Below, piece by piece: positions 18,041 through 59,188 of a stretch of 64,000 nucleotides of DNA. The notes beneath the pieces were generated by a model. It was not told where the DNA came from and searched no databases. It saw nothing but the letters and a program-made list of their open reading frames with translations. This DNA is from a virus. The position numbers were made by a program, and so were the translations under genes. The stretch spans positions 1 to 64,000 of the IMG/VR virus record IMGVR_UViG_3300023184_009074; one strand, written 5' to 3'. How positions within the stretch are numbered: position 1 is the stretch's first letter; every line of letters begins with the position of its first letter.

Positions 18041-18742
18041 TTATTTAACTTGATTTAATTTATAGATTTCATCTGGTGATTGATCAATATGTCCAGCTTT
18101 GCCTTCTGCATCAAAGAAACCATGTGCTAAGTGTTTTCCTCCTTTGTCGGAAGTAACATAATGAAAAGCACTTAATTTTTTGTTTAATCCACGAAGAACA
18201 TTATGATCACCTGCTGATAACGAATTAGCATTTTTATTTAAAGCACTTTTTTCCGCAGTCGTAAGCACATTATCTGTGATTCCTTTTCCTTGCATGTAAT
18301 TTTTAATATCTTTTGGCAACATTGATGTTAGTTCGCTATGACTTGATTTAAGATCTATGTTGCTTTGCACAGCTGTAAAATCATCTGGATCATCTTGATT
18401 TGCACTTCTTATAGAAGATTGGAAGTCATCTTTTTTACGGCTGTCCATTGTAAGTTTGTCGATTGCAGAAACATCATATGTAGCATGTGGGTCATTAAAT
18501 GAATCTTTTTTACCTTGAATCAAAGTTTCATTGTCTGGAGAAAATTTAAAATTGTTTCCAACATCATTAGGAGCATAAGATTTTCCTGCTAATCCTAATC
18601 CAGCACCAAGCATCGCAGCACCTATTACGCCTTTATGCACTCCTTGTTTAACTTGTTTCCAAGAAGGAAGTTTAAATTCGTTTAAAAGTTCATCGTAAAG
18701 TTCTGGATCTCGTTGTTCTAAGAATTTTTTAAATGATTTCAT
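18041..18742 (-). CDS. hypothetical protein with capsid-targeting-like N-terminus
   Basis: 233 aa. The N-terminus MKSFKKFLEQRDPELYDELL closely parallels that of the gene at 20401-20979, and the upstream leaders are also near-identical (TTTTATATTAAAAA), although the bodies differ. A Gly/Ala-rich hydrophobic stretch (GVIGAAMLGAGLGLAG) follows near residue 40. The C-terminal domain ends HVGH-type (HLAHGFFDAEGKAGHID). The motif is one of a genome-wide set resembling T4 internal-protein leaders. Function unknown. Confidence 0.6.
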   Translation of the reverse strand: MKSFKKFLEQRDPELYDELLNEFKLPSWKQVKQGVHKGVIGAAMLGAGLGLAGKSYAPNDVGNNFKFSPDNETLIQGKKDSFNDPHATYDVSAIDKLTMDSRKKDDFQSSIRSANQDDPDDFTAVQSNIDLKSSHSELTSMLPKDIKNYMQGKGITDNVLTTAEKSALNKNANSLSAGDHNVLRGLNKKLSAFHYVTSDKGGKHLAHGFFDAEGKAGHIDQSPDEIYKLNQVK

Positions 18743-18836
18743 TTTTCTCTTTTTTAATATAAAACAATTTAAAGTATATATGTTTTAAAGTTTAAATTAA
18801 GCTAATTTTTTTGCTGGTTCGGTTTGTTAAATATAT

Positions 18837-19166
18837 TTATAATGGAACATGAAATATTTTTATTGTTAAAATTCCAATAACAATTAGAATTAATCCTATT
18901 ATTTGATTTAAATTAAATTTAAATTGAAATATAAAAATTGGAATTAAATAACCAATAAAAATAAGCATAAAATCCCAGTATATGCCATTTATTAATATAT
19001 CTTCTTTATTATTTAACTTTTTAATAAGTAGGAAATAACACATTGAGCTAAACAAATTACAACAAATTGATACTGGCAGAAACCAATTTGTTTTTCTTGT
19101 AGGTTCATGGAATGTAATTAACATTACTACCAAGTAGAAAAAAGAAGCAATTATATAATATTGCAT
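18837..19166 (-). CDS. small four-helix membrane protein
   Basis: 109 aa with four hydrophobic segments (about residues 2-20, 27-46, 62-82 and 86-107) separated by short polar loops. Size and topology resemble small drug/metabolite-type transporters or halves of EamA proteins, but no signature residue is visible. Location is expected to be the host inner membrane. Confidence 0.6.
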   Translation of the reverse strand: MQYYIIASFFYLVVMLITFHEPTRKTNWFLPVSICCNLFSSMCYFLLIKKLNNKEDILINGIYWDFMLIFIGYLIPIFIFQFKFNLNQIIGLILIVIGILTIKIFHVPL

Positions 19167-19180
19167 GTTTATTCCTTTAG

Positions 19181-19999
19181 TTAGTAAGTGCTAAATATTC
19201 TTTCTATGTTTTCTGAAATATCTTCTATTTTTTGAGTATTTGCAAAAACTTCATCCCATTCAGAAGGTTGAATTTCCCATTCTGTAGATTTCATAGATGT
19301 CGATATTTCATTTCCCCAAGTTCTAATTAATCCTAAGTTTGGTACATTTTCTAAATGAATTTGGAATTGCAAAGCTCTTCTGAAACTTGGTAATCCATTA
19401 CCTCCACCTTTGTATTCATAACAAATTGTATAGTTGTGATTATTTATCTTTACTACTTCTGTGAAAAACATAATTTTTGGATGTTTGTTTCTTAATACTT
19501 GTGAAGTTTTAATTACAAGTTTTAAGAAATCTTCATTTGAATATCCTTCTTTGCAGTACTTAATATTTTTTTCATCTAGCTTTATAAGTTGATCGTAAAT
19601 ATATTGTGCTATTTTTTCTTCATCATTTACACCAGTTAAATGTTTAAAATCATTTACCAATGGATAGCATTTAATTAAAATTGGTGCTGGATGACCTTTT
19701 AAATCTTTTATATCTCTTCTCAATAATATTTTAAAAGATCCAAGTGGAGACACAGATATTATGAATTTACCATAGCTATCTCCAAATTCTAAAACACTTG
19801 ATTTTGATCTATATGCTTTTTTATTATTTAATGGACCTAATCTTTGTAAATTGTCTAAAAGAAGATTAGAGTCTAAGTGTTGAATTGGATTTTGATCGTA
19901 AACTTCATCTTCTTTTGAAGATTTTTTATTAATTTCTCCAAAACCATATAAATCTTCTGGAGTTTTATTAAACCATGTTTTAAATTCAAGAAGCATCAT
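19181..19999 (-). CDS. hypothetical protein
   Basis: About 272 aa. The open frame extends upstream to 20158, but that part overlaps the divergent gene at 20014, so I take the tandem ATGs at 19996-19999. The N-terminus MLLEFKTWFNKTPEDL fits the aromatic-x-x-W pattern shared by many small proteins here. The body has alternating strands with no recognised family. Confidence 0.55.
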   Translation of the reverse strand: MMLLEFKTWFNKTPEDLYGFGEINKKSSKEDEVYDQNPIQHLDSNLLLDNLQRLGPLNNKKAYRSKSSVLEFGDSYGKFIISVSPLGSFKILLRRDIKDLKGHPAPILIKCYPLVNDFKHLTGVNDEEKIAQYIYDQLIKLDEKNIKYCKEGYSNEDFLKLVIKTSQVLRNKHPKIMFFTEVVKINNHNYTICYEYKGGGNGLPSFRRALQFQIHLENVPNLGLIRTWGNEISTSMKSTEWEIQPSEWDEVFANTQKIEDISENIERIFSTY

Positions 20000-20013
20000 A
20001 ATATATATATGAT

Positions 20014-20334
20014 ATGAAACATTTAAATTTTTATAATTGGTTGTTAAATGAAGAACAATCTTCTTATGTTCAAAAAATAAAACAATTGAAAAATGCTTTG
20101 GGGCTTTCTGTGCAAGTAGACGACACAGATGGAATAAAAGCTGCTGGAAATATACCATTAAGCGATATAGAGAAAGATAACATTAAGAATTTTAAAACAA
20201 ATTATATGTATACGGATGTTGGAGTGGAAGATAATAGAAAAGAAAATCAAACTGCTATAGACGAATTATTAAGTTCCCCAAATAAAAATGTTAGTGATCT
20301 TGCAAATCTTATGGTTGGTTTAGAAAGCAAATAA
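20014..20334 (+). CDS. small protein with capsid-targeting-like N-terminus
   Basis: 106 aa beginning MKHLNFYNWLLNEEQ. The segment FYNWLLNE matches the aromatic-x-x-W-L-x-E pattern and ends in an L-x-E site like those cut by the T4 prohead protease. The rest is polar and acidic with no recognised domain. A bidirectional terminator follows. Confidence 0.6.
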   Translation: MKHLNFYNWLLNEEQSSYVQKIKQLKNALGLSVQVDDTDGIKAAGNIPLSDIEKDNIKNFKTNYMYTDVGVEDNRKENQTAIDELLSSPNKNVSDLANLMVGLESK

Positions 20335-20344
20335 CCTATAAATA

Positions 20345-20375
20345 AAAAAGCAGCCCTTTTATAGGACTGCTTTTT
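20345..20375. terminator. bidirectional rho-independent terminator
   Basis: AAAAAGCAG and CTGCTTTTT form a stem extended by CC/GG, flanked by A and T tracts. It lies between convergent genes. On the minus strand one C/A mismatch becomes a G-U pair, so termination of the gene at 20401-20979 is favoured. Confidence 0.85.
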
Positions 20376-20400
20376 AAATATAAGTATAATATTTATAGTA

Positions 20401-20979
20401 TTACATTTGTGGTCTGTCTGCTGGATTTAATTCATTTTCTCCTCTTTGGTTATCCATATTAGATATATGTTTTTTTAAAACCATCTCAATTTTTTCTAGT
20501 GGATCTTGAATAAATCGTTTAAGAGCACCTAAATACTCTTTATCATCAAATCTTCCTATTGATCTATTTCTGGCCATAGGATCAGTTGAATAACTTCTTC
20601 CTTTATTTAATTCTGAAAGTATGTCATCTACAGCCCGAATCATCATTGCTTGGTCTGATGGAGAATTTTTATCAAAGTGTTGTGCGAATGCATTACTAAA
20701 TCGGTGTAATGGTTCTATAATATTTCTATCAACGGCTTGAAAGTTTTCGTCATTAGGCAACAGGGCTAAATATCTTAGTTGTGGAATGCTATCTTTTTTG
20801 TCATTGCCTAATACATGCTCTATGTGATTTATTAAAGTAACAATACCTGCTTTGAATCTACTAGAATTTTCTTGATCCATTTGAGCAATATGGGTAGCAG
20901 TGTTAAGCCTAGCCATTTCAGAGAATTCTTTATAAAATGATTTATCACGATTTTTAATAAACTGATTAAAACTTTTCAT
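20401..20979 (-). CDS. hypothetical protein with capsid-targeting-like N-terminus
   Basis: 192 aa beginning MKSFNQFIKNRDKSFYKEFS, paralogous at the N-terminus only to the gene at 18041-18742. The body is helical and ends DRPQM. AAAGGA precedes the ATG, after a TTTTATATTAAAAA leader shared with the paralogue. No domain recognised. Confidence 0.6.
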   Translation of the reverse strand: MKSFNQFIKNRDKSFYKEFSEMARLNTATHIAQMDQENSSRFKAGIVTLINHIEHVLGNDKKDSIPQLRYLALLPNDENFQAVDRNIIEPLHRFSNAFAQHFDKNSPSDQAMMIRAVDDILSELNKGRSYSTDPMARNRSIGRFDDKEYLGALKRFIQDPLEKIEMVLKKHISNMDNQRGENELNPADRPQM

Positions 20980-21047
20980 TTTTTTCCTTTTTAATATAAA
21001 ACAATTTAATTTATATATAATTAATTAATAATAAATTTAAATAAATT

Positions 21048-23288
21048 TTAAAATTTTAAATCATCTATAGAATCAAGTATTTTAATTTTATGCCCTTGTT
21101 TTTCTAATATACTTATTCTTTTTTCTGAATGTTTTTCTAAATATTCATTATTTTCAAATAAGAAGTCATAATAATTTAAACCATTTTTATCTTTAGCTAT
21201 TCTTAAACCTCTACCCATGCGTTGAATAATTAAATGGTCGGCTGAACCACCACAAGAATTTATTATGTTGTGTACGAAAACATTAATGCCTGTATTAAAT
21301 ATTTGTTGAGTAGCAATTGCCATTACATTACCTTGTGCTTTTTGAAGTTGATCTATAACTTCTTGTCTTACTTCGTCATTGTCTTCACCTTTAACCCAAA
21401 AAGCATTAGGCAATCTATATTTTAAAATATCACCATGCTGTATTCGATCAACAAGAATCAATGTTCTTCCTGTACATTTATTAGCAAGGTTCTCAACTAT
21501 ATCGTGAAAATAGTGATTTTCTACAATGCCATGTTGTACTGCATCTTGATAAATTACATGTTCTAATTTTTCTCCTTTTATTTTAATAAAGAAGCAAGAG
21601 CTTTTAGATAGTCTTCCACGATCTTGAAGTTCTTTAGTAGTTAATAAACCACTTTCTGTAGCAGTTGTTTTAAGGATTGGCCCAAAAAAACCTTTTACAT
21701 AATACTTTTGTACTTTATCTGTTTCTCCATATTTAAATGGTGTCGCAGAAAGTCCTATTCGGATACCACAATTAATCATTTTCTTATAAACAGCTTTAGG
21801 AGTTTTGCTCATCATATCGTGAATTTCGTCAACAATAAGAACTTTAAACTTTGGTAATAACTTAGTTATTTTGCTACAAGATTGAACAGTAGCAACGGTA
21901 ATTAGATTTGGTTCATTGTAGGTGTGATAAAGTCTTCCTACATTTTTAAAACCCCATTTTATTAATTCATTGTAGTTTTGAATAGCAAGTGATTTGCGAT
22001 TTTGAACAACTAAAATAGGAGTATTAGGAGGAAGGCATTTTATAATGCTTGTTAATATAAAAGTATTGTGAGTTACAACAAAATTATTTGTCAGGTATAA
22101 TTGATCTGGATGATCAACACTAATACAAGCACAATCTTTTTCTTCTGTATATTCGATTTTATCAATATATCTTATTGGTTTAAAACAAGATAAATTTTTA
22201 TAAGTTTTAATTTTCTCTATATCTGAAAATGGCATTATTTCTTTTGGTAGTATAATTCCTGTAAGAAAAATCATTCTATTTTTTCTTATTTTTAACTTTG
22301 TGTAAGTTATTCCACCTAGAGATTGTACTAGTTGTTTAATTTGGTCGTTTAATATTTTTGAATAAGAAACATAATAAATTGATCTTTTACCGAATAAAGA
22401 TCTTCCATCTAATAATCCACATAACAATTTAATTCTATTATCATAAGAGTTAAATAAATATTCATCTGGTATTATTGTTTCTTTGGCTAATTTATTTTTT
22501 TCGTAATTAATTACATTACTTATTATCAATCCAAAGAAATAAGGTTCTGTTTTTGTTTGTTTTTCTAAAAAATCAACTCTTTTTGGAGTTGGAACAAATA
22601 CTTTATTTTTTTCATGCATTAAGTCTTTTGCTTCAACAATTTTTGTTTCTTTATTTATCTTTACCTTCCAGAGATGATTTTCGCAGCATTCAACAACATC
22701 GCCATTATTGAATGTTATTTGAACTATTTTCTTTTTTCCTTGTGGGAATATTCCTCGTAATTCTGCATATCCACCATTTGGAACACATACTTTATCTTTT
22801 AATTTTAAATCTTTTAATTTAACAAAACCATTTTGGGTAGCAATCAAGGAATTATAAGGTTGTGCTTTACCAGAACTTGTAGGAGCAAATACAATTCCTC
22901 TTTGATGTTTAACAGCTTGGTTGGTAAAATCTACTTGATAATCTTCTAGTTTTATTTTATCAATTCCTTCTGGGAGCCATTGATTTAAGAAATTTTCATC
23001 AATTTCTTTAATTATAAAGTCAAACTTATCTCTAAGGTCATCAATTTCATAATCTATATTTTTTAATTTTAATGCCATTAATATCTCTGGTAACAGCCCT
23101 GTCAGAAATTTACCAGAATCTTTATTAAAGAACGATGTGTATCCGTCCCAAATTTTTTGTTTGTAAAGTCTGTTGTGAAAATAGTTCCTTTCTCTGAACT
23201 TTAAACAGTTGCAAAGCATATCCTTGGTAGTTACATCAGATGTAATTACTTGACTTATATCATTTTTAACCATTATTTTAACTGACAT
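21048..23288 (-). CDS. uvsW: UvsW-like helicase precursor interrupted by an intein
   Basis: 746 aa precursor. The extein reads APTSSGK, then resumes TFILTSII after residue 408, so the insertion lies inside the Walker A motif. Extein motifs include VLIVDEIHD (DExH), IGLSATPF and QRMGRGLRIAKD. The N-terminal ~100 residues resemble the DNA-binding domain of T4 UvsW, which remodels forks and Holliday junctions and unwinds R-loops. Without splicing the ATPase would be dead. After splicing the product is about 479 aa, near T4 UvsW (503 aa). Confidence 0.9.
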   Translation of the reverse strand: MSVKIMVKNDISQVITSDVTTKDMLCNCLKFRERNYFHNRLYKQKIWDGYTSFFNKDSGKFLTGLLPEILMALKLKNIDYEIDDLRDKFDFIIKEIDENFLNQWLPEGIDKIKLEDYQVDFTNQAVKHQRGIVFAPTSSGKAQPYNSLIATQNGFVKLKDLKLKDKVCVPNGGYAELRGIFPQGKKKIVQITFNNGDVVECCENHLWKVKINKETKIVEAKDLMHEKNKVFVPTPKRVDFLEKQTKTEPYFFGLIISNVINYEKNKLAKETIIPDEYLFNSYDNRIKLLCGLLDGRSLFGKRSIYYVSYSKILNDQIKQLVQSLGGITYTKLKIRKNRMIFLTGIILPKEIMPFSDIEKIKTYKNLSCFKPIRYIDKIEYTEEKDCACISVDHPDQLYLTNNFVVTHNTFILTSIIKCLPPNTPILVVQNRKSLAIQNYNELIKWGFKNVGRLYHTYNEPNLITVATVQSCSKITKLLPKFKVLIVDEIHDMMSKTPKAVYKKMINCGIRIGLSATPFKYGETDKVQKYYVKGFFGPILKTTATESGLLTTKELQDRGRLSKSSCFFIKIKGEKLEHVIYQDAVQHGIVENHYFHDIVENLANKCTGRTLILVDRIQHGDILKYRLPNAFWVKGEDNDEVRQEVIDQLQKAQGNVMAIATQQIFNTGINVFVHNIINSCGGSADHLIIQRMGRGLRIAKDKNGLNYYDFLFENNEYLEKHSEKRISILEKQGHKIKILDSIDDLKF
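22065..22865 (-). mobile_element. intein in the UvsW Walker A motif
   Basis: Residues 142-408 of the precursor (267 aa). It begins with Ala (AQPYNSLIATQNG) rather than Cys or Ser, has a block B-like ENHLWKV, and ends VVTHN followed by Thr. An Ala-1 intein must splice by a variant pathway that skips the N-terminal acyl shift. Two weak LAGLIDADG-like helices (YFFGLIISNV; LLCGLLDGRS) suggest a degenerate homing endonuclease. The insertion point, between GK and T of the P-loop, is a classic conserved intein site. Confidence 0.88.
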
Positions 23289-23357
23289 AATTTTTCCTTA
23301 AGATAAGGTTTTATTATAAAAAAGTAAATTTAGAAAAGCAAATTATTTATTCAATTA

Positions 23358-23364
23358 ATAAATA
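23358..23364 (+). promoter_or_regulatory. ATAAATA box near a start codon
   Basis: ATAAATATAGT runs into the ATG at 23369, four bases after the box, with no Shine-Dalgarno. Confidence 0.45.
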
Positions 23365-23368
23365 TAGT

Positions 23369-23821
23369 ATGAAGAAATATAATGAATGGTTAAAAGAAGA
23401 AGCCGAATTAGTGTTAACTACACCAATTCCAGTTGCACCAACTGCTGTTTCACAGACTGTTGCTCAAAAGGCAGTTTACCAAGCAGATAAAACAAAATTA
23501 AAGAATAAAGCTTGGAAAGCAAGTAAAGATGAAATATTAACATTTTGGAGAAGTGTTGCTGGTAATTCACCAATTCAATTAAAACCTATTCCTTACAATC
23601 ACAAAGGAACTACAATTCAAGAAGATGGCATAAGAATTACTGGTACTAAAGAATTTATCGCAAGTATTCTTTCTAGAATGAAGGAATTGATTAATTTTGA
23701 AAATGATAATAATAAATTAATAATTTCTTACAGGCAATCACCTAAAAGCTTAATACCTGGAAATAAAGAAAGTTATATGTTTTATTTGCAAATAAAAGAA
23801 AGAGGTCAAAAATCTAAGTAA
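23369..23821 (+). CDS. small protein with capsid-targeting-like N-terminus
   Basis: 150 aa beginning MKKYNEWLKEEAEL, matching the aromatic-x-x-W-L-x-E pattern. A Pro/Val/Ala linker (TPIPVAPTAV) follows, then a compact C-terminal domain (residues ~70-150) with alternating strands. No family recognised. The structure suggests a cleavable leader, linker and cargo domain. Confidence 0.6.
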   Translation: MKKYNEWLKEEAELVLTTPIPVAPTAVSQTVAQKAVYQADKTKLKNKAWKASKDEILTFWRSVAGNSPIQLKPIPYNHKGTTIQEDGIRITGTKEFIASILSRMKELINFENDNNKLIISYRQSPKSLIPGNKESYMFYLQIKERGQKSK

Positions 23822-24010: not shown

Positions 24011-24131
24011 AAAGAATTATCCTTTTGTTTTAACAAATAATAATTTATTTACTTTTTTAAAAATAAAATTTAATAATTTTTTGTTTATATTCCTACCAAA
24101 AAAAATTAATAATAATTAACTACATATTATT

Positions 24132-24503
24132 ATGGAAATGAATTTCAAAAAATGGTTAAATGAAGTGGTTGCTCCATTATCTGCTTCTGGGATTAAAACT
24201 ACAGCAACGACAGGAACAGTTCAAACTAATGCTATAACGCCTAATTCATCTGGACAAAAAGGTATTGAAGATAAAAATTTATCAAAAAATATTACAGATT
24301 TAGCTGGCATTATGCAAAGAGATCTTCAAAAAACAGGTCAAAGCATTAATGACATGACTAAAAAGGCTGTCAACAAAGATTTAAGTGGTATTGTTGGAAT
24401 GTTTAGAGCATATGATGCAAAAAACAAAAATAAACTTCCTAAAGATGATAAAGTTTTGGCTGCTGCAATTACAGGTTTAACTGGACAAGGAGAAACGAAA
24501 TGA
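24132..24503 (+). CDS. small protein with capsid-targeting-like N-terminus
   Basis: 123 aa beginning MEMNFKKWLNEVV; WLNE fits an L-x-E protease site. ATG codons at 24132 and 24138 are both possible. The body is polar, Thr/Asn/Lys-rich and helical in the second half. Overlaps the next gene by four bases (ATGA). No family recognised. Confidence 0.6.
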   Translation: MEMNFKKWLNEVVAPLSASGIKTTATTGTVQTNAITPNSSGQKGIEDKNLSKNITDLAGIMQRDLQKTGQSINDMTKKAVNKDLSGIVGMFRAYDAKNKNKLPKDDKVLAAAITGLTGQGETK

Positions 24504-24850
24504 TTAATTTTCTAGAATATGTCAATATTCTTGCAGAAGCAGACGCACCAGCGTTAGGAGCACCACCTGCTGGCGGTGCAATGCCTCCTCCTCCTGCTGG
24601 CGGTGGTGCTGGCGGTGCTGGCGGTGCTGGCGGTGCTGGCGGTGGTGCTGGTGATATGGGTGCACTTTCTGCTCCTTCTTCTGCACCTTCTCCTGTTCCT
24701 GCTGCAAGTGGTGGTGGTGGTGCTCCTCCTATGGATGCTATGGGTGGTGCAGCACCAGCTGGTGATGTCAGTGCTTTAAAAACTCCAAACATAAACCTAG
24801 AAGATGCTTATGATCATTTAGAAGATTTCTTTAATAAAAATAAAAAATAG
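24500..24850 (+). CDS. Gly/Ala/Pro-rich protein with capsid-targeting-like N-terminus
   Basis: 116 aa beginning MINFLEYVNILAEADAP; ILAE followed by Ala matches the T4 internal-protein cleavage pattern. The middle ~80 residues are low-complexity Gly/Ala/Pro, and a short acidic helix ends the protein. The gene is far more GC-rich than its neighbours because of GGT/GCT codon runs. The composition suits a flexible internal or structural protein. Confidence 0.6.
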   Translation: MINFLEYVNILAEADAPALGAPPAGGAMPPPPAGGGAGGAGGAGGAGGGAGDMGALSAPSSAPSPVPAASGGGGAPPMDAMGGAAPAGDVSALKTPNINLEDAYDHLEDFFNKNKK

Positions 24851-24913
24851 TTTAGATTGACAAAATTAGAAAATATCATTATTTTAAGGCTTTAGTCTTT
24901 CAAGAAAGATTCC

Positions 24914-26723: not shown

Positions 26724-26732
26724 AAAATAAAA

Positions 26733-33054: not shown

Positions 33055-33792
33055 CTATATGCTTGATTCTGTAAGCCATTTTTTAAAAGAAAAATTCTCA
33101 CTTGTGAATCTTTGCTGCCAATCCTGTGTCCTAGAAGGTTGTGGAATATACATGGATGCTTTTGTAGTTGGTGCAGTAACAGTCTTTAAAATTTGACCTT
33201 CTTCTAATTCTCCAAGAGTATAACTTCTAGATTGATTTGTTTTGTAAGAAAAAACTTCAATTTCTTGTTCTTTCAATTCGCTTTCATCTAGAATATCCAT
33301 CACATCCATATCTTGTGCTATGTCATATGCTGCGTTGACAATTTTTCTAGCTGTTTCTTGATTAAATTCCCATACTTCAAAATTATTTTGTCTAATAATA
33401 ATATATCCTAAATATTTACATCCATATTTTCTAGAATCTCCATGTAATGCTTGCATTGCTTCTGTTAATTTTGGATTAGAAACTAATTTATAATTAATAT
33501 CTTTTATGCCATCGTAAAGACTATAAACATTATCTGGGTCATACTCTTCTTGACGAATATCTCTCTCAACTTTCATTTTGTTTACTTCTAATTCTTGAAT
33601 AAGTTCTTCTGATATTTTTGATTTTTCTGATTTTTCTATTAAGTCTTCTGCAATGTTAACTAGTTCTTCTGCATATGTTCCGCAAATTGCTTGCATAATA
33701 TGTGCTTCATGACCCATATCACTGACATCACCATCAGCACCTATTAAATAACTGCCATCATAAATATATTCGCCTCTTAAAAAGTCAATCAT
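33055..33792 (-). CDS. paralogue A of the ART-linked protein family
   Basis: 245 aa, homologous along its length to residues ~85-340 of the 34361-35809 product (shared KLTEAMQAL, RKYGCK, NFEVWEFNQ). It ends FSFKKWLTESSI, so the W-L-x-E motif lies at the C-terminus here. AAGGA precedes the ATG. The shared domain is acidic and helical and I do not recognise it. The C-terminal motif may be a cleavage site or a remnant of a lost downstream domain such as the ART domain of its paralogue. Confidence 0.65.
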   Translation of the reverse strand: MIDFLRGEYIYDGSYLIGADGDVSDMGHEAHIMQAICGTYAEELVNIAEDLIEKSEKSKISEELIQELEVNKMKVERDIRQEEYDPDNVYSLYDGIKDINYKLVSNPKLTEAMQALHGDSRKYGCKYLGYIIIRQNNFEVWEFNQETARKIVNAAYDIAQDMDVMDILDESELKEQEIEVFSYKTNQSRSYTLGELEEGQILKTVTAPTTKASMYIPQPSRTQDWQQRFTSENFSFKKWLTESSI

Positions 33793-33794: not shown

Positions 33795-34364
33795 TTAATC
33801 CTTATTTAAAGTACTTATTACAATAGGTTGTATATCTAAAAGTTCAGTATCGTTTTTAAAAATTCTTGGAAATCTTTTTGCTATTACAGGATTGAAGTTA
33901 AATGGTTTTACTTTTACATGTCTATCTTCGTTTATTCCAAGTGCATACAATTTAGCCATTGTTTTCCCAGCAGTAGGATCTAGATCATCTACAAGAATTG
34001 ATTTTTTGCTTTTAGGTAATTTGTTTTCTTCTGGGTCAATAAATTCATAATCTTCTATTCCAAAAATATTATTTTCATCTATTGGGATGCCAAGAGCTTT
34101 TATTACTTTTTTCTGAAATACACTTCCTCCAGCAGTAATAATACAAACTTTGGCAATTGCTTTTAAATTATTTACAAAATCAATTGCATGTGGCCTTAGA
34201 AAACTAGCATAAGAATTGGTAATCAACACACCACTAAGAGCTTTAATTTCTTCTGGATTTTTAAAAGGTGGCACTTTATTAGTACTTACTAAAGTTTCAT
34301 CTAAGTCTAAGAATATGATTGGATTTTCTTCTTTATTTTCAATCCATGTTTTAAAATTTATCAT
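33795..34364 (-). CDS. HAD-family phosphatase with capsid-targeting-like N-terminus
   Basis: 189 aa. After MINFKTWIENKEEN comes FLDLDETLVST (HAD motif I, nucleophile and acid Asp), CIITAGG (motif II Thr), Lys (QKKVIKAL) and SILVDDLDP (motif III acids). This matches NIF-type small phosphatases or nucleotidases. Substrate unknown. It sits between the two paralogues, overlapping the ART gene by four bases. If the leader is a capsid signal, the enzyme would be injected with DNA. Confidence 0.8.
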   Translation of the reverse strand: MINFKTWIENKEENPIIFLDLDETLVSTNKVPPFKNPEEIKALSGVLITNSYASFLRPHAIDFVNNLKAIAKVCIITAGGSVFQKKVIKALGIPIDENNIFGIEDYEFIDPEENKLPKSKKSILVDDLDPTAGKTMAKLYALGINEDRHVKVKPFNFNPVIAKRFPRIFKNDTELLDIQPIVISTLNKD

Positions 34365-35809
34365 TTATGTATTTTCTTTGTGTCTGTAGAAAATGTTCCT
34401 TTGTTTTTAATTGATTTTAATTGTTTTGGATCAAAAACTATGGCATTAAATGTTCCATCTTTATCTTTTAAAATAACGCCATCGTATCCATCTCTAAGCA
34501 ATTCATCTATACCTTTTTTATCATATTCATCCCAGCCAGCTGGATTTTGAATAGATGCATAGAGTTCAAAAACGGCACCGCTAACACCAGCACCAGTTTC
34601 ATTTTTATCAGCAGCATTTTTGTCTGATGTTACCCAAATTATCCCGCCCATAGCAGATTTCTTAGGGTCAAATCCAAATTTATTTATTTTTTCTGCTGCT
34701 TCTTTGCTTGTTTGATGATAAACCACAATTGGATTGCCTTCTGAATCTATTACTTTTGAATTTTTAAACCAATTTTTAAAATCAGGATTGTCAATTATGG
34801 AGTTTTCTAACCATATTTTAAAAGAAAAACTTTCGCTTGTGTATCGCAATTGGTGTCTTTGTGTAGTTGAAAGTCCTTCTGGAGTAGAAGCCTGTGGAAT
34901 GAAATGATTTGATTTACCTTGACTTATTGTAGGTGTTACATTTAATTTTTTATCTCTTAATTGCTCAATAGTATATTCACTGCCTTTATTGGTTTTATAT
35001 GAAGTAATTCCTATAGTTTGCTCATCTTCTCTGCTTCTGTCTTCTCTGTTTTCTTCCATAATTTTTTCTGCTGCATCTACAATCTTATTTGCAGTATCTT
35101 GATTGAGTTCCCACACTTCAAAGAAAGGCCCTCTAATAATAATAAATCCTAAAGATTTACATCCATATTTTCTGACATCTCCATGTGATAATGCTTGCAT
35201 GGCTTCTGTTAGTTTTTGATCAGAAACTAATTGCGGATTAATATCTTTAATAGCATTATAAAGGGTGCCAATATTAGTAATTTCTTTTTCTCCAATATTA
35301 TCATCTTCAATATAATCTGGAAGATTTTTAATTTTATATTTATATCTCTTTAATTCCTCTAATTTTTCTTCTAATTCTTCATCTATTTCTTCTGGTTTTT
35401 TTGATTCAATTTGTTTAATTAATTTTTCTGCAATATTTACTAATTCTTCTCTATGATTTAAAAAAATTGCTGCTTGTATCGTTTCTTCATGAGTTTTTAC
35501 ATCTGCTTCTGTTAATTTTCCGTGATCATAAATCCATTCACCTTTTAAAAGATCTACTTCTTCCTTGTCTTCAAATGGTGGCTCAATTATTTCAAGTTGT
35601 TCTTTCCACCAATTTAATTCTGCTTCAACATTATTTACTTTAGTTTGTTCTAAAAGAGATTTGATCCATATCATAGATTGTTCAATTTTAAATTTTTCTA
35701 TTTCTTCCCATCCCAACCCATCTAAATTATTTATTATGTTGTGAAATGCTATAATAAAATCTTTTGGTATTTCTTTATTTATAAATTTGATAACTGCGTC
35801 TTTGTCCAT
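34361..35809 (-). CDS. ADP-ribosyltransferase-like (ART-PolyVal type) fusion protein
   Basis: 482 aa. Residues ~85-335 are the domain shared with paralogue A. FSFKIWLEN follows near 328, then a C-terminal ART-like domain (~342-468): FKNWFKNSKVIDSEGNPIVV, YHQT (His), WVTSDKNAA (Ser/Thr), YDGVI and VFDPKQLKS. This matches the ADP-ribosyltransferases of phage and plasmid polyvalent proteins. A terminal catalytic Glu is not obvious. T4 Alt is a packaged, injected ART acting on host RNA polymerase, so an early host-takeover role is inferred. Confidence 0.75.
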   Translation of the reverse strand: MDKDAVIKFINKEIPKDFIIAFHNIINNLDGLGWEEIEKFKIEQSMIWIKSLLEQTKVNNVEAELNWWKEQLEIIEPPFEDKEEVDLLKGEWIYDHGKLTEADVKTHEETIQAAIFLNHREELVNIAEKLIKQIESKKPEEIDEELEEKLEELKRYKYKIKNLPDYIEDDNIGEKEITNIGTLYNAIKDINPQLVSDQKLTEAMQALSHGDVRKYGCKSLGFIIIRGPFFEVWELNQDTANKIVDAAEKIMEENREDRSREDEQTIGITSYKTNKGSEYTIEQLRDKKLNVTPTISQGKSNHFIPQASTPEGLSTTQRHQLRYTSESFSFKIWLENSIIDNPDFKNWFKNSKVIDSEGNPIVVYHQTSKEAAEKINKFGFDPKKSAMGGIIWVTSDKNAADKNETGAGVSGAVFELYASIQNPAGWDEYDKKGIDELLRDGYDGVILKDKDGTFNAIVFDPKQLKSIKNKGTFSTDTKKIHK

Positions 35810-35818: not shown

Positions 35819-35869
35819 TTATATTTTTCTGGAATAGTTTCTATTTTCTAACCATATTTTAAAGTTCAT
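35819..35869 (-). CDS. 16-residue leader ORF carrying only the W-L-E motif
   Basis: ATG at 35869 encodes MNFKIWLENRNYSRKI then TAA, nine bases before the ATG of the ART gene. The peptide is nearly the consensus N-terminus of the motif family and matches the internal FKIWLEN of the ART protein. It may be a split-off leader, a translated uORF or the remnant of a frame break. Confidence 0.4.
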   Translation of the reverse strand: MNFKIWLENRNYSRKI

Positions 35870-40095: not shown

Positions 40096-40977
40096 TTATT
40101 TTCCTAAAATATAATCAATAAAATTTAAACCAAGTTGAAATGTTGGTTTATCAAGGAATTTATAATCTCTTTTGATTTTTTCTAAAACTTGAGAATCTCT
40201 AATTGTTGATTCTAAGTCTTGGCTAACAACATTTTCTGTAATAATCTTAAATTCTGTTTTTGCAATTGTATCTCTGTATTTTCTTAAAGGGAAGAAATGC
40301 TTATTTACTTTTATTTGATTTGGTTTTTTGCCTAAAAATTCTTCTAATTCATTTTCAAGCAAAGCAATGTGAAGGAAGGCTTTATTGCATTCATTATAAA
40401 GATGACCACCATGTCTTGAAGTCCAAGGATGCATTCTTACATAAAGTTTTCCTTGAGGAGACAATACTTCTTTGATTTTATTGAAAACATCAACTTCTGA
40501 TTCATTTTCTAAATGATCAAAAACATCATACATTAAAATAATATCATAAGGGCCATTTTTTTCAACTACCGACCAATCTGTAGTAAACGATTCTGGATTT
40601 TTTTCTTTTAAGGAAGGACAGAAGGTATCTTTTATGTCATATCCTAAAGAATAAGATGCTTTGTTATCATCTGCTGCAATAGCAATGTGTCCTTCTCCAC
40701 ATCCAAAATCAAGAAATTTTTTATTTTTAATATTCTCTTCAATGTAAAGATCAAGAACACTATTTGCTCTTTCGAATTTATCTTCTTCAGAAGCTGCATC
40801 ACAAATCATTGATGGATCAACTGCTTCAGGCCAAAGAGGATTTCTTAAATCTTCCAGCGTCAAATAATATGCTGCTGAATTTTTTTGATTTGGAAGGAGA
40901 AGATTTACTTTATTGTTAATTTCTTCAATTTTATCTTGAAGAATCTTTATTTCTTTGATTAAATTTTCATTGTTCAT
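40096..40977 (-). CDS. class I SAM-dependent methyltransferase
   Basis: 293 aa. FLDFGCGEGHIAIAA is SAM motif I, LGYDIKD motif II, YDIILMYDVFDHLENES motif IV and GKLYVRMHPWTS motif V. An N-terminal coiled-coil (~35 residues) precedes the domain. Related to UbiG/Methyltransf_11 enzymes; substrate unknown. Divergent from the CTP synthase gene. Confidence 0.82.
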   Translation of the reverse strand: MNNENLIKEIKILQDKIEEINNKVNLLLPNQKNSAAYYLTLEDLRNPLWPEAVDPSMICDAASEEDKFERANSVLDLYIEENIKNKKFLDFGCGEGHIAIAADDNKASYSLGYDIKDTFCPSLKEKNPESFTTDWSVVEKNGPYDIILMYDVFDHLENESEVDVFNKIKEVLSPQGKLYVRMHPWTSRHGGHLYNECNKAFLHIALLENELEEFLGKKPNQIKVNKHFFPLRKYRDTIAKTEFKIITENVVSQDLESTIRDSQVLEKIKRDYKFLDKPTFQLGLNFIDYILGK

Positions 40978-41029
40978 AGTATTCTATAATAATTATCATT
41001 TTTATTTTTTAAAAAGAAAATTGGGAAAA

Positions 41030-42655
41030 ATGGCAAAATATTTTGTTGTTGTAGGCGGTGTCTTTAGTGGTATTGGAAAAGGAATATCTATTGCATCCAT
41101 TGGATATTTGCTTTCTTTGAGAAGTTTAAAGGTTATTCCAATAAAATTTGATCCATATTTAAATACAAATGCTGGGATTCTTGCTCCAAGAGAACATGGA
41201 GAAGTATTTCTTTGCAACGATGGCAGCGAAACAGACTTAGATTTAGGTCATTATGAAAGAATAATTGGTTGCCAAGTTTCTAAAAACAACATTTGTACCA
41301 GTGGAACTATTTATAAAGAAATTATAGAAGAACAAGAAGAAGGCAAGTATCTTGGTGAGACTGTTCAAATAATTCCTCATGTAACAAATAAAATCATTGA
41401 AAAATTAAAAAACCTAGGAAAAGACAACGATGTTGTGTTGGTTGAAATTGGTGGTACGGTAGGAGATATTGAAAGTGGCCCTTTCATGGAAGCAATTAGG
41501 CAATTTAAGCGAAAAAACCCAGACGATGTAATTGTTGCTTTGTGTGCTCCTATTTTATGGGTTCCTACAATAAAAGAATTTAAAACCAAGCCTTTGCAGC
41601 AAGCTGTGCAAACAATGCAATCTTGTGGCTTGCAACCTGAAGTTTTGTTGTGCAGAGCAGAGAAAGAAATTCCTTCTAAGATACTTGATAAAATTAGTGC
41701 TTTGACAAATGTTCCAAAAGATGCTGTATTTGAAGCACTAGATGTTAAATCAATTTATCAAGTTCCAATTGAATTTTATAATAGGCATGTAGATGATTTG
41801 ATTATTGATAAATTTCACTTGCCTAGAAATGGGTTAAGAATTCACAAATATAAAGATTTGGTTGAAAAGTATGTTAATTGCGATGATTTAACTTCTGTTA
41901 AAATAGGAATTTTAGGAAAATATGATAATTGTGATGAAGCTTATTTAAGTTTAAAAGAAGCAGTCTTCCATGCTGGTGTAGCTGCTAATGTTAAAGTTGA
42001 AATTGAATGGATATCAGCACAAGAAATTGAACAGATTAAGGATAATAAAGCTTTTTGTAAAATATTTGATTCTATTGATGGATTAATTGTGCCTGGTGGT
42101 TTTGATTCAAAAGGAATTGAGGGAAAAATAAAAGGCATTTCTTGCGTAAGAAATAAAAAAATTCCTTTTTTGGGAATATGCTTGGGATTGCAATGTGCTG
42201 TAATTGAATTTGCAAGACATGTAGGTCTTGAAACTGCTAATTCACAAGAATTTGACCCAGATACAAAATACCCTGTTGTACATTTTATAGCTGGACAAGA
42301 AAAACTAAAGAAAAAATCTTCCAACATGAGACTTGGTGCTTTTGATTGTGATATAACAAAAGATTCATTGGCATTTGATCTTTATAAAAAGAAAACAATA
42401 TCTGAAAGGCATAGACACAGATACGAAGTTAATGATTTATTAATTGATGAAAAGTTTTACAAAGAAGGCTTTAGAATTACAGGAAGATATTTAGAATCAA
42501 ATTTAGTAGAGATAATTGAAATAGACAAAGAAATTCATCCCTTTTTTATTGCAACTCAAGCACATCCTGAATTCAAAAGTAGATTAACATCGCCATCTCC
42601 TTTATTTTTAGGTTTAATAGAAGCTGCTAAAAAGAAAAAAGAAGTTAATATATAG
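41030..42655 (+). CDS. pyrG: CTP synthase
   Basis: 541 aa, the family's usual length, from the ATG at 41030 (GGGA upstream; an ATG at 40955 adds 25 residues outside the family). The synthetase domain carries GGVFSGIGKGI and EHGEVF...GSETDLDLGHYERI. The glutaminase domain carries LGICLGLQ (Cys nucleophile) and QAHPEF (His, Glu). It makes CTP from UTP, ATP and glutamine. Besides nucleotide supply, CTP feeds the IspD-like cytidylyltransferase 2 kb downstream. Confidence 0.95.
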   Translation: MAKYFVVVGGVFSGIGKGISIASIGYLLSLRSLKVIPIKFDPYLNTNAGILAPREHGEVFLCNDGSETDLDLGHYERIIGCQVSKNNICTSGTIYKEIIEEQEEGKYLGETVQIIPHVTNKIIEKLKNLGKDNDVVLVEIGGTVGDIESGPFMEAIRQFKRKNPDDVIVALCAPILWVPTIKEFKTKPLQQAVQTMQSCGLQPEVLLCRAEKEIPSKILDKISALTNVPKDAVFEALDVKSIYQVPIEFYNRHVDDLIIDKFHLPRNGLRIHKYKDLVEKYVNCDDLTSVKIGILGKYDNCDEAYLSLKEAVFHAGVAANVKVEIEWISAQEIEQIKDNKAFCKIFDSIDGLIVPGGFDSKGIEGKIKGISCVRNKKIPFLGICLGLQCAVIEFARHVGLETANSQEFDPDTKYPVVHFIAGQEKLKKKSSNMRLGAFDCDITKDSLAFDLYKKKTISERHRHRYEVNDLLIDEKFYKEGFRITGRYLESNLVEIIEIDKEIHPFFIATQAHPEFKSRLTSPSPLFLGLIEAAKKKKEVNI

Positions 42656-42658: not shown

Positions 42659-43042
42659 ATGGATAATTTTAAAGAATTTATATTAAATGAAAGCAAACAA
42701 TTTTTTGCCACTCAATGTGGCGACATTTTAAATGCTATTCAAAATCTTGAAGAAGAAGCAGACTATATTGGGACAAGAAATCTTGTAAGATATAGTCAGA
42801 ATATTGCAAATAACATTAGAAATTTAATTCATTCTCATTGGAGTGATGATTTAAGTGATAATTTAAAACAATTGCAAACTATAGGAGTTGCAATATTAAA
42901 ATCAATAGAAGAATCATCTGAATTGCTAGAAACAATTAAATCTGCAAGGGCATCTTTAGAAGAACTGGTTAAAAAACTTGGCGTACCAATTAACAATGTT
43001 GGAATACCAGAAAAAGAATCCAAACCTCAAGAAGCAGAATAG
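42659..43042 (+). CDS. small protein with capsid-targeting-like N-terminus
   Basis: 127 aa beginning MDNFKEFILNESKQF; ILNE followed by Ser fits an L-x-E cleavage site. The rest is helical and acidic. It lies three bases after the CTP synthase stop. No domain recognised. Confidence 0.6.
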   Translation: MDNFKEFILNESKQFFATQCGDILNAIQNLEEEADYIGTRNLVRYSQNIANNIRNLIHSHWSDDLSDNLKQLQTIGVAILKSIEESSELLETIKSARASLEELVKKLGVPINNVGIPEKESKPQEAE

Positions 43043-51564: not shown

Positions 51565-52497
51565 ATTAAAAGTCATTTGATTTTCTATCATTTTTTTACA
51601 TGAATCTATCATTTTAAGAGGATATTTTTTATACTTTTCTGGAATAATAAACCAATCATCATGTATATTTCTATTTTTACCAGATATAATTGCGTACTCG
51701 TAAAATTTTAAAGCATGTCTAAAGGCTTTGCTTTCATACCAATAATCACCTACAAAACACCAAAATTCAGCCATTTGTGGCATTTTTGCTAAGCAAGTAA
51801 CAATGTTTTGAATTATTTTATTTTTATCAATATTCTTATACATTAAAATACTAGAAATATAAAATCTTATTAATATTTCATTTTCTTCTTTAATATTTTT
51901 ACTAAATAAAAATTTTTCTGCTTCGCAGATAAAATTATCATATTCTCCATTAATTAAGAAATTCATGGCTTTGTAATAATTTATCTGATTATTCAAAGGT
52001 TCTTGAATATGCCATTTTTCAAGTATTTCTTTGTAATTTTTTCTTTTACAATTTGTTGCATTTATAAAAATACCTTTGTTTAATTCAAATGTTTGGTCTT
52101 CTATAGACTCAAATACTTTATTTGAAAAAATAAATTTTTCTTTAAGACATATTCTAGTTTCTTTAACAATTGTAGTGTCGTAAACAATAGAAATTTTGCA
52201 ATTTTTATTTTCAACTAATGATTTAATTGATTTAGTAATTAAAATTTCTCCAACATTAATACTTAAAAGTAAATTATTTGGCAAGATATGATTGTTTTTA
52301 TTTCTTAGCTTTGAATAATCTTCTTCCCATGAATTGTCTTTTATAATTACAATTGTTGGTTGTTCTTCTATGTCTTTTGGTAATGTCGAAGTAGTGATAA
52401 TATAAATATCATCAACTTCTTCATTTAAAGAAATTAAAGTTTTCTTTAAATCTTTGTAGTTTTCATCATGGAATAATATTACTGCGGTTATTTTCAA
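51556..52497 (-). CDS. GT2-like glycosyltransferase with degenerate site and C-terminal TPR-like helices
   Basis: 313 aa. The start MKITAVILFHDENYKDL and the WEEDYSKLRN block match family 2 transferases that use a D-x-D/E site, but the expected D-A-D-E appears as INVGE. The C-terminal half is helical with a TPR-like unit (AEFWCFVGDYWYESKAFRHA). It may be inactive or use another metal site. Confidence 0.6.
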   Translation of the reverse strand: MKITAVILFHDENYKDLKKTLISLNEEVDDIYIITTSTLPKDIEEQPTIVIIKDNSWEEDYSKLRNKNNHILPNNLLLSINVGEILITKSIKSLVENKNCKISIVYDTTIVKETRICLKEKFIFSNKVFESIEDQTFELNKGIFINATNCKRKNYKEILEKWHIQEPLNNQINYYKAMNFLINGEYDNFICEAEKFLFSKNIKEENEILIRFYISSILMYKNIDKNKIIQNIVTCLAKMPQMAEFWCFVGDYWYESKAFRHALKFYEYAIISGKNRNIHDDWFIIPEKYKKYPLKMIDSCKKMIENQMTFNLK

Positions 52498-53162: not shown

Positions 53163-53226
53163 TAAGATAAAATAGTTTGTTTTTTATAATTTATACGATA
53201 AAATATTATATAACGAAAGGATAAAT

Positions 53227-53466: not shown

Positions 53467-53469
53467 TTT

Positions 53470-53970: not shown

Positions 53971-53994
53971 ATGATTATATAGTAGTTTAAATAA

Positions 53995-54026
53995 AAAAAG
54001 CTTGCATTATTAAATGCAAGCTTTTT
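53995..54026. terminator. strong rho-independent terminator
   Basis: AAAAAGCTTGCAT and ATGCAAGCTTTTT form a perfect 13-bp stem with a six-base loop, flanked by A and T tracts. It ends the sheath-tube transcript (minus strand) after the major tube gene. Confidence 0.92.
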
Positions 54027-54046
54027 ATTAAATAATTGAGTATTAC

Positions 54047-54688
54047 TCAACCAGTTGGTTGAGTTTGATTTCCAACAGAGCCAGGTTGTTTCTCGTCAAA
54101 TGTTCCACAGCCAGCACAATAAATATCGAAATCTTTAGCACAGGCACTATTGGGAATGTATTGAAAGTTTCTGTATCTTAAAGTCACATCAATTGTACAT
54201 TCATCATTTGAAGAATAATCTAATTCTCCAAAATTTATTTGAGTAGGCCAACAATCTAGATAAATAAATTTATCAATAGTATTGCCACAGCCATCAAGCA
54301 TAGTTAATACCCCTTCATCGGCAGTGTAACCACCAATAGTAGCTTGTTTTGAAGATTGACTTAGACCAATAGGATCTGTAAAGTTATACACAGTTGCCAA
54401 CCAAGTAAATAAGCTTGATATAACATCGCCACCTTCACCACTTGCTATATCATAATAAGTTACTTGAGTAGTATCAGGAGTTCCTTTGCCAGGAATCCAC
54501 ATTTTTCCATTTAAATAATTAATTTCAGTTTCTTCAATTGTTAAGCTTGGCCTATTTGCAGCCTTAACAAAAGATGGTGCTATGTATTTTTTTCTACAAA
54601 CATTAAAAAATTCCATAGTCCAACGAAATTTTCTTTTGAAAATATTATCAGCAGTTCCCAGTAACCCTAAACCCATTTGTGTTGCCAT
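54047..54688 (-). CDS. 19: major tail tube protein (gp19-like)
   Basis: 213 aa. MATQMGLGLLGTADN...FKRKFRW at the N-terminus, LTMLDGCGNTID, and INFGELDYSSNDECTIDVTL near the C-terminus are the gp19-type tube signatures. AAGGAG precedes the ATG, directly downstream of the sheath gene, the usual order 18-19. The tube polymerises inside the sheath. Confidence 0.88.
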   Translation of the reverse strand: MATQMGLGLLGTADNIFKRKFRWTMEFFNVCRKKYIAPSFVKAANRPSLTIEETEINYLNGKMWIPGKGTPDTTQVTYYDIASGEGGDVISSLFTWLATVYNFTDPIGLSQSSKQATIGGYTADEGVLTMLDGCGNTIDKFIYLDCWPTQINFGELDYSSNDECTIDVTLRYRNFQYIPNSACAKDFDIYCAGCGTFDEKQPGSVGNQTQPTG

Positions 54689-54714
54689 TTTTTTCTCCTT
54701 GTCTTAAATTTAAA

Positions 54715-57051: not shown

Positions 57052-57070
57052 GATTTTTCTCCCTTTTTTC

Positions 57071-57271
57071 TTATACGGTTCGTTTAGTAGTAATTAATCC
57101 TGCTTCAACAGCACGATCTATATATTCAGTTGCTCTTTCATCTTGTAACAAAAAAATATTATTTTTTTTGCCAATTCCTGGAATATTCAAGCAAGTGAAT
57201 GAATTTGGTATTTTTGTAGATTTAACTACAATTTGCACTGGGTATTTTTTCTTGTTTGTAATTTCAATCAT
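57071..57271 (-). CDS. small conserved tail-cluster protein
   Basis: 66 aa, ATGA-coupled to the upstream gp15-like gene and 20 bases before the sheath gene. Strand-rich with a central GIGKKNNIFLL and a helical end. Unrecognised, but placement suggests tail assembly. Confidence 0.65.
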   Translation of the reverse strand: MIEITNKKKYPVQIVVKSTKIPNSFTCLNIPGIGKKNNIFLLQDERATEYIDRAVEAGLITTKRTV

Positions 57272-58260
57272 TTACTTAACTCCTTAACCGATTCTTCAAT
57301 TCTTCCGATTACTTCTGTAATGTCTTCTTCCTTTAAGCCATTTACAAATTCTGTTCTTGTTTCCAAAACAGTTTTTTTTCTCACAAGAGGTTGTGCTACA
57401 TAAGTCTCGGCAGTCAATGAGATTTCATATTTTATGACTCTTAATGCAGCATCACCTGGTTCTTGATTTAGGTTATTTGCAATCGAATCAAGCTTAACTG
57501 GAATCTCCCAATTAATACCTCGTACAGTTATATATGAAATAGGTGAGAATTTTAAAAAAATTTGTTCTAAAATTTGATTAATATCTTCAACATACAAAGT
57601 CCATATTCCTAATTTATAAGAAACATCAATTGGTATTCCTCTTGAAACTCCAAAGACTGTATCTTTTTCATATTTTTCAGATCCATAAAAACTTGGCTTG
57701 CCTTTTACATCTCTAAGATAATTTACTGCTGCATGATATGTATAACGATTTTGATTGAAAGAATACCCAGTGCTACTTATAGACATCATTGGAATTCTTA
57801 TTCTATCAACAACTAATGTATCGTCTTTTCTTGCGTTTTCTTGGAGCATAAAAGCAACGGCTCTTTCTTGTGTGCCCCAGATAATAGGAATTGGATGTGC
57901 TTTGCCAGATTCATCTATAACAACTATATTTCTAAACAATCCCATTACAGCTTCATCTGTTCCACGCAAAGATTTTGCATATCTAAAAACTGTATCACGC
58001 ACTGGAGTTTCTAGATCATTTATAATTTTTCCACTTTGAATTGGATCGCAATTATTTTCTTGCCCTAAATTTGTTTTTGTATTTTGCGAATCAGTAAACC
58101 AACTTTCTTTAGCTCCATCTACATTATTTTGATTTAAAGGATCTTTATTACAGTAACCAGGAGGCGGATCAATATTATTGCTTTGTCCTAAAGGACTTTT
58201 GCAATTGATATTGTTTAGTGCTTCTTCTGAAGAATTAATTTGTGGACCAAAATTTTTCAT
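57268..58260 (-). CDS. 15: tail sheath stabiliser/terminator (gp15-like)
   Basis: 330 aa. The segment SYKLGIWTLYVEDINQILEQ with FLKFSPISYITVRG resembles the T4 gp15 block around TRYEDDMFQIVEQILPYFQP. An N-terminal ~70-residue extension has repeated N-N-D-P-type units (SNNIDPPPGY, NQNNVD, QENNCDP). gp15 caps the tube and sheath and binds the head neck. It is upstream of the sheath gene as expected. Confidence 0.7.
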   Translation of the reverse strand: MKNFGPQINSSEEALNNINCKSPLGQSNNIDPPPGYCNKDPLNQNNVDGAKESWFTDSQNTKTNLGQENNCDPIQSGKIINDLETPVRDTVFRYAKSLRGTDEAVMGLFRNIVVIDESGKAHPIPIIWGTQERAVAFMLQENARKDDTLVVDRIRIPMMSISSTGYSFNQNRYTYHAAVNYLRDVKGKPSFYGSEKYEKDTVFGVSRGIPIDVSYKLGIWTLYVEDINQILEQIFLKFSPISYITVRGINWEIPVKLDSIANNLNQEPGDAALRVIKYEISLTAETYVAQPLVRKKTVLETRTEFVNGLKEEDITEVIGRIEESVKELSK

Positions 58261-58292
58261 TTTAAAACCTTTTAAATATTTATTATAACATA

Positions 58293-58299
58293 ATAAATA
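58293..58299 (+). promoter_or_regulatory. ATAAATA box near a start codon
   Basis: CATAATAAATAAATT runs into the ATG at 58304, four bases after the box; no Shine-Dalgarno. Confidence 0.45.
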
Positions 58300-58303
58300 A
58301 ATT

Positions 58304-58525
58304 ATGATTAATTTTAAAGAATGGTTAAAATTACAAGAATATGCTTTTCATAATTATTTTGGACCACTTACTGGAACAGGGGTAAACGATGAACCTTTTT
58401 CAAAAGCAGGTGTGCGTTCTAAATATATTGGACCAGCAGATACATTCAGTTCTAATGGAATAGAGAACACTCCTGAATGTTTATATTTAAAAAAACATTG
58501 TCCCAAGAAACATAAAAGGAAATAA
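58304..58525 (+). CDS. small protein with capsid-targeting-like N-terminus
   Basis: 73 aa beginning MINFKEWLKLQEYAF; L-Q-E is a possible cleavage site. The C-terminus is basic with Cys and His (PECLYLKKHCPKKHKRK). No family recognised. Overlaps the next gene by one base. Confidence 0.6.
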   Translation: MINFKEWLKLQEYAFHNYFGPLTGTGVNDEPFSKAGVRSKYIGPADTFSSNGIENTPECLYLKKHCPKKHKRK

Positions 58526-58803
58526 TGGCATCATTAGGATTTTTAATTGAAAAGCTTTCTAAATCTACAGATTCAAACAAAGAAGAAAAAATAAAAGAAA
58601 TAATATCTTTTGGTAAAAATATTCGTGATGATTTTTGGGATGATTTTATTTTATTATTAAATGATCCTGATGGATTGTCTGCATTATTAGGAGTATCAGA
58701 AGATTTAATTGTAACATGGCATAGTAAAATTAAAAAATATTTAAATGATAAAGATGATGAATTAGAGATATATAAAAAAAGAAGAAAAATTTTAAAAAAT
58801 TGA
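58525..58803 (+). CDS. hypothetical helical protein
   Basis: 92 aa, start overlaps the previous stop (TAATG). Helical, with LLNDPDGLSALLGVSED resembling the GVSED turn of DNA-binding or adaptor proteins. Unrecognised. Confidence 0.55.
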   Translation: MASLGFLIEKLSKSTDSNKEEKIKEIISFGKNIRDDFWDDFILLLNDPDGLSALLGVSEDLIVTWHSKIKKYLNDKDDELEIYKKRRKILKN

Positions 58804-58813
58804 AAGGAAAAAA

Positions 58814-59188
58814 ATGAAGAAATTTAATTCTTGGTTAAATGAAAGTAAGTTTGAGGAAAAAAATATTATTAAAGAGGTTGATTTTAATAGTCCTTTCGCA
58901 AATATAAATAGACTTTCTTCATTGGAAAAAACTCCTCTTAAGAAATTTCAAAGAACCATTCAAGATTTAAAGGAAAAACACGGTAGTGATTTTAAAAGTA
59001 CAGCATCTAACAACAGAGCGATGCTTCTTAATAGTATAAGTTTAGTTCCATATGATAATGTTGATGATTTTATGAGGGATTGGAATTATGTGAAAAATCA
59101 TGTATCTCATACAGAAGATTTGAAAGTAGATAATCCTGTAGAGTTAGATAATTCTATAAAAGATGATTTAAATGTCGATAGAAAATAA
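58814..59188 (+). CDS. small protein with capsid-targeting-like N-terminus
   Basis: 124 aa beginning MKKFNSWLNESKFEE; WLNE followed by Ser fits an L-x-E site. AAAGGA is upstream. The rest is polar and helical with no recognised domain. Confidence 0.62.
   Translation: MKKFNSWLNESKFEEKNIIKEVDFNSPFANINRLSSLEKTPLKKFQRTIQDLKEKHGSDFKSTASNNRAMLLNSISLVPYDNVDDFMRDWNYVKNHVSHTEDLKVDNPVELDNSIKDDLNVDRK

Follow-up and report, generated by a model that had tools for sequence, protein, structure and literature searches.

A portable tag, probably directing proteins to the capsid as in T4, on dozens of proteins in one phage lineage

The T-even phages possess a few internal proteins that share a common leader, with about ten kinds over their relatives, and these proteins inhibit type IV restriction (PMC12373910; PMC3012670). 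Mutagenesis of the T4 internal protein IPIII assigned functions to positions within this leader: entry into the head is directed by residues 4 and 7, and cutting requires residues 8 and 10 (PMC9026906). In phiKZ and SPN3US most propeptides exceed 100 residues (PMC5694885), and purified virions of the cyanophage S-SM1 were found to contain a cytidylyltransferase (T4-GC190; SSM1_190) (PMC3037559). Our literature search, carried out without most subscription journals, returned no report of large tagged sets in other lineages, of C-terminal targeting or of RNA-healing cargo.

The DNA analyzed here, referred to as the window, comprises positions 1 to 64,000 of the IMG/VR record IMGVR_UViG_3300023184_009074 (83,444 bp), a fragment of a T4-superfamily myovirus with a tail sheath and a RecA/UvsX-like recombinase. 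The record ends near a neck gene, and relatives of the gene at that end led to three contigs, G001, G002 (225 kb) and G003. The nearest named record is LR756511.1, an uncultured phage of 595 kb that shares 78% capsid-protein identity with G002. Single-protein scans with UvsX and with the gene at 80432 found no relatives, and a PHROGs search of the tagged proteins scanned gave no useful match. An earlier note on this DNA had reported ten genes beginning with aromatic-x-x-W/F/Y-L/I/V, and all ten open reading frames and their N-termini were verified as stated; they are the N-terminally tagged genes listed below other than 19181. The tagged features of the window, named by their first coordinate, are as follows.

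18041–18742, minus strand: tagged gene of 233 aa, MKSFKKFL...LLNE, body family unassigned
19181–19999, minus strand: tagged gene, true start MMLLEFKTWF; the family is tagged in G002 and LR756511 too
20014–20334, plus strand: tagged gene, MKHLNFYNWLLNE
20401–20979, minus strand: tagged gene, MKSFNQFIKNR, with a downstream F-S-E only
23369–23821, plus strand: tagged gene, MKKYNEWLKE; the LR756511 homologue is tagged too
24132–24503, plus strand: tagged gene, MEMNFKKWLNE
24500–24850, plus strand: tagged gene, MINFLEYVNILAE, body rich in Gly, Ala and Pro; similar tagged genes occur in G002 (169074) and LR756511 (438735)
33055–33792, minus strand: gene tagged at the C-terminus and paralogous to the N-terminal part of 34361
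33058–33093, minus strand: C-terminal tag of 33055, FSFKKWLTESSI-stop, matrix score 16.8
33795–34364, minus strand: tagged HAD/NIF-type phosphatase (PF03031, 1.8e-9), MINFKTWIEN followed by DLDET
34361–35809, minus strand: gene with an internal tag directly ahead of an ART-PolyVal domain (PF18760, 2.2e-14)
34799–34828, minus strand: internal tag of 34361, SFSFKIWLEN
35819–35869, minus strand: mini-ORF of 16 codons, MNFKIWLENRNYSRKI-stop, in the frame of 34361
42659–43042, plus strand: tagged gene, MDNFKEFILNE; tag and LNE-type site recur in about 20 homologues, but the family scan used the leader as one search pattern, so leader conservation is no independent test
58304–58525, plus strand: tagged gene, MINFKEWLKLQE; orthologues tagged
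58814–59188, plus strand: tagged gene, MKKFNSWLNE; the tag is kept while the body diverges

Two further genes of the window are recorded as side observations: a UvsW-like helicase (21048–23288, minus strand) whose P-loop region is broken by an intein-like insert, with a weak Intein_splicing match, and a phage-borne CTP synthase (40955–42655; PF06418, 1e-97) whose true start is probably internal.

Across the whole record we count 15 N-terminal tags, together with one internal copy (34361) and one C-terminal copy (33055, ending in SFKKWLTESSI), the last two having escaped the earlier note. The 15 comprise the original ten, 19181, and four genes outside the window and absent from the original list (67433, 69961, 71735 and 80432). 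The related leader that the note had seen in 19181 is indeed a tag, but the gene starts near 19999 and not as called, and its overlap with 20014 therefore disappears; a structure model of this family was poor (pLDDT 58) and was left out of the evidence. The mini-ORF at 35819, in which the note had also seen a related version, carries a complete tag; it precedes 34361 in frame with one TAA between them, while 34361 has a second copy, and it may be a lost leader, a case of readthrough or a sequence error. An L-x-E following the leader had been claimed for seven of the ten genes. It is present, but in eight when the first ~22 residues are considered (18041, 20014, 23369, 24132, 24500, 42659, 58304 and 58814); 20401 has F-S-E only, and 33795 is without a clear cutting site.

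The pattern [FWY]xx[FWY][LIV] opens 14 of 105 ORFs at residues 2–7, where its density in other positions, or shuffling, predicts about 2. We then scored leaders with a nine-column matrix trained on the original ten alone, taking a score of at least 8 as a match, and obtained 12 first-start ORFs on the source contig against 0.45 for shuffled N-termini; a match at 52466 (score 8.6) was regarded as a false positive. Because the matrix was trained on genes of this contig, other genomes serve as independent tests. In G002, 24 genes matched with 0 expected from internal methionines, and in LR756511, 39 genes matched with 2.3 expected; with shuffled N-termini and annotated first starts only, the corresponding figures were 18 against 0.4 and 26 against 1.2. 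Six genes each matched in G001 and G003, one in T4, one in Mel-JY01, two in P-SSM2 and one in RHph_TM30 (2 expected). The genome-wide profile scan that the earlier note had suggested thus returned many further tags, far over chance, with counts above those of shuffled proteomes. An origin by chance or composition would hold that AT-rich genes often open with lysine, phenylalanine and tryptophan codons, and the 28% G+C of the window and the broad aromatic motifs throughout the proteome (86 in all) fit such a view. Internal methionines and shuffled N-termini, however, yield only 0–2 matches, a relative at 42% G+C has more tags, and C-terminal copies cannot arise from translation starts; with the independent genomes refuting it, we consider this explanation exceedingly improbable.

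The tag keeps the register of the T4 leader. Of 86 tags, 48 have their first aromatic at residue 4 and 20 at residue 3, and among the 48 an aromatic occupies residue 7 in 46 and an aliphatic residue 8 in 38. T4 IPII and IPIII (MKTYQEFIAEA) have the same register and a matrix score of only 3.1, so the likeness is one of pattern and register, not of close sequence identity. As a separate observation, T4 gene 61.1 (NC_000866, 18966–19130, minus strand), which adjoins the 61.2/adfA anti-toxin region, has the N-terminus MKTFKEFIKED and a matrix score of 14.4, above those of the T4 internal proteins themselves.

Putative cutting sites accompany the tag. An [LI]xE within six residues after it was found in 21 of 56 tags, against 5.5 after shuffling, some tags having no site, and L-N-E-type sites are enriched among tagged genes (10/56 versus 28/575 other genes). 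The strongest sequence test of such sites is the 71735 family, which was gathered by conserved patterns in its body: here the tag is followed by a linker of 5–60 residues without other conservation and then by an invariant body (TRYS...), and a hydrophobic-x-E lies no more than 16 residues before the body in 27 of 28 members (background 29%; P ~4e-14). By matrix score 16 of the 28 are tagged, and most of the other 12 carry weaker variants by eye. The gp21-like protease that the earlier note had expected is found, as Peptidase_S77, in the relatives that have a head module (G001, G002, G003 and LR756511), but not on the source contig, where a PF03420 search gave no protease; this 83-kb contig is a fragment without head genes. 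A Gp23 capsid protein is present in G001, G002 and G003. In the capsid protein of the relatives, residues 7–10 read FLNE and an L(I/M)NE stands just ahead of the Gp23 domain; LNE sites also occur in the N-terminus of the G002 protease itself.

The S-SM1 cytidylyltransferase starts MKKFSAFLNE/A and is the only ORF in that phage with the strict leader pattern; the P-SSM2 version starts MKSFSQFLTE. Its detection in virions, the only direct evidence from particles, is supportive, not proof, being one case in a distant relative against a base rate of some 41 in 240 genes (~17%). These observations bear on the alternative that the tag sends proteins to a destination other than the head, such as a phage-built compartment, the membrane, the replication site or the tail, given that a two-aromatic amphipathic helix at either end of a protein could bind many partners. 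The retention of the T4 targeting register, the protease-type sites after the tag, the FLNE of the capsid protein and the presence of one class member in virions all argue against it, and we judge it very unlikely.

The tag is also movable, as the earlier note had supposed in describing the leader as shuffled among differing bodies, since cargo families occur with and without it and the NUDIX family is tagged at either end. Among 28 complete and distinct members of this family, whose gene adjoins the 71735 homologues, the tag is C-terminal in 19, N-terminal in 4, absent in 5 and present at both ends in none, counts in which L259 has been corrected, its N-terminal call having been a regex artefact. 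We regard this family, judged from its sequences, as decisive for movement of the tag between ends. The C-terminal form reads S-F-x-E-W-x-x-x-R (motif background 165/4260), and in a predicted NUDIX structure (pLDDT 94) it forms a separate helix beyond the NUDIX fold. Strong C-terminal matches are over-represented genome-wide relative to interior positions. The C-terminal tag keeps both targeting aromatics and is without the cutting residues, which would fit a targeting function that can be separated from cutting. Elsewhere, PolyA-polymerase-type proteins are tagged in G002 and LR756511 and untagged in G001, LR756511 has one tagged and one untagged NADAR, and the ART domain has an N-terminal tag in G002 and an internal one in 34361.

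Two side observations concern protein ends. The N-tagged NUDIX L231 reads ...KKLNE/QFHRIG, several C-tagged homologues start MMLTE-QFHRIG, MNLYE-QYHHIG or MAE-QYHRIG, and these N-termini (L231, L191, L259 and L228) look as if a former N-terminal cutting site had remained. A subtilisin-like protease (62935 to ~64035, plus strand; PF00082, 3e-56) carries SFSEWVEL near its C-terminus (score 14).

Direct observation covers the motif with its excess and register, the conserved site, the protease of the relatives and the tags at both ends, and we consider it likely that this is a portable capsid-targeting tag of T4 type, borne by dozens of proteins in this phage lineage. Core binding, cutting, packaging, injection and the role of the cargo are steps that we infer for this phage. 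The two aromatics (F/Y, then W/F/Y three residues on, typically at 4 and 7) would sit on a short helix with affinity for the prohead core, through which tagged proteins would be built into the prohead. An S77 (gp21-like) protease would then cut after hydrophobic-x-E, often L-N-E. The cut would fall where the tag ends or at a second site directly ahead of the folded body, and the freed cargo would be injected with the DNA. A C-terminal tag would also target its protein, which, with the cutting residues absent, would probably retain it. The cargo would consist of proteins that act quickly in takeover and against defences, among them enzymes for RNA-end healing and others related to ADP-ribose/NAD.

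Most tagged cargos match no known family. The domains recognised are a NIF-type HAD phosphatase and ART-PolyVal in the window; NUDIX, HAD_SAK_1, PolyA_pol, cREC, ART-PolyVal and a winged helix in G002; and HAD_SAK_1, PolyA_pol, NADAR, a tRNA-ligase CPDase and the C-tagged NUDIX in LR756511. Judged by these domains, the recognised cargo leans toward RNA-end healing and ADP-ribose chemistry, both discussed in the literature as counter-defences of jumbo phages (PMC7824862). The RNA ligases of the same phages, tested as cargo, are present and untagged; a complete packaged repair pathway is therefore unsupported. In another phage, LR756508 (W02, 484 kb), we observed a variant leader, FKxLLxE, on several proteins with no reliable Pfam domain (stitched positions 98625, 170862 and 251448); a reading of some of these leader genes as ADP-ribosyltransferases was dropped, the resemblance being unsupported by Pfam.

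The nature of the cargo also bears on whether the tag, while binding the prohead core, marks proteins that serve head assembly only, as core, scaffold or chaperones, and not effectors. The products of 24500, 67433, 80432 and G002 137483 are small, of low complexity or very large and could be core proteins, and T4 core proteins are likewise cut by gp21. Many cargos, however, are recognisable enzymes without a head role, and the set varies between phages: for 65 of 107 tagged proteins no homologue was found in the genomes compared, and the remainder are spread over many families. We therefore consider a function confined to head assembly unlikely. Within the favored reading of a capsid-targeting tag on effectors, it is conceivable, at somewhat short of even chances, that this terminus-independent code pre-loads dozens of enzymes, so that tRNA-cleaving and NAD-based defences are met before phage gene expression; these enzymes would include a kit for healing RNA ends and processing ADP-ribose, made up of CPDase, HAD_SAK phosphatase, a poly(A)/CCA-type polymerase, cREC, NADAR, NUDIX and ART.

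As a separate matter of expression, a k-mer search returned an enriched CTAAATA some 11–15 bases before the ATG, seen in 8 of 39 tagged versus 19 of 1048 other genes in LR756511 and, ahead of the ATG, in 4 of 24 versus 4 of 298 in G002. It is possibly a promoter whose transcripts would be nearly leaderless. No enrichment before tagged genes was seen for the T4 late-promoter motif TATAAATA.

If the capsid-targeting reading is true, a ten-residue sequence tells from DNA which proteins of uncultured large phages travel in the particle, a question that normally requires purified virions. Loading of the T4 type, known for only a few proteins in each phage, would become a general route for tens of enzymes; it could work from the C-terminus, and RNA-healing and ADP-ribose counter-defence may begin at injection. 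T4 gene 61.1 and the cyanophage cytidylyltransferase offer testable predictions in laboratory phages.

Compared with known systems, the tag most resembles that of T4 IPI–IPIII and Alt with gp21, with which it shares an N-terminal leader, aromatics at 4 and 7, an aliphatic residue at 8, E at 10, unrelated bodies, and an S77 protease and gp23 (here in the relatives); with Alt it also shares ADP-ribosyltransferase as a cargo type. It differs in the far larger number of tagged genes per genome, many with enzymatic cargo, in favoring F-x-x-W, in longer variable linkers with a second site, and in its C-terminal and internal copies, so that restriction to the N-terminus does not hold. The ejection proteins of phiKZ and SPN3US parallel the proposed scheme, being many, packed in large phages and cut at short motifs ending in E, whereas here a tag of ~10 residues plus a 5–60 residue linker (10–70 in total) replaces the long propeptide. 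Polyvalent proteins of phages and conjugative elements have in common with the present set the idea of enzyme delivery along with DNA and the ART-PolyVal domain, found in two tagged genes; they are long multi-domain polypeptides, whereas most of the proteins described here consist of one domain and are tagged individually, only 34361 being two-part. The S-SM1 T4-GC190 cytidylyltransferase has the same leader and L-N-E site and is found in virions, but no other ORF of its genome has the strict leader pattern. We conclude that the tag would represent a variant of the T4 system that is expanded and not tied to one terminus.
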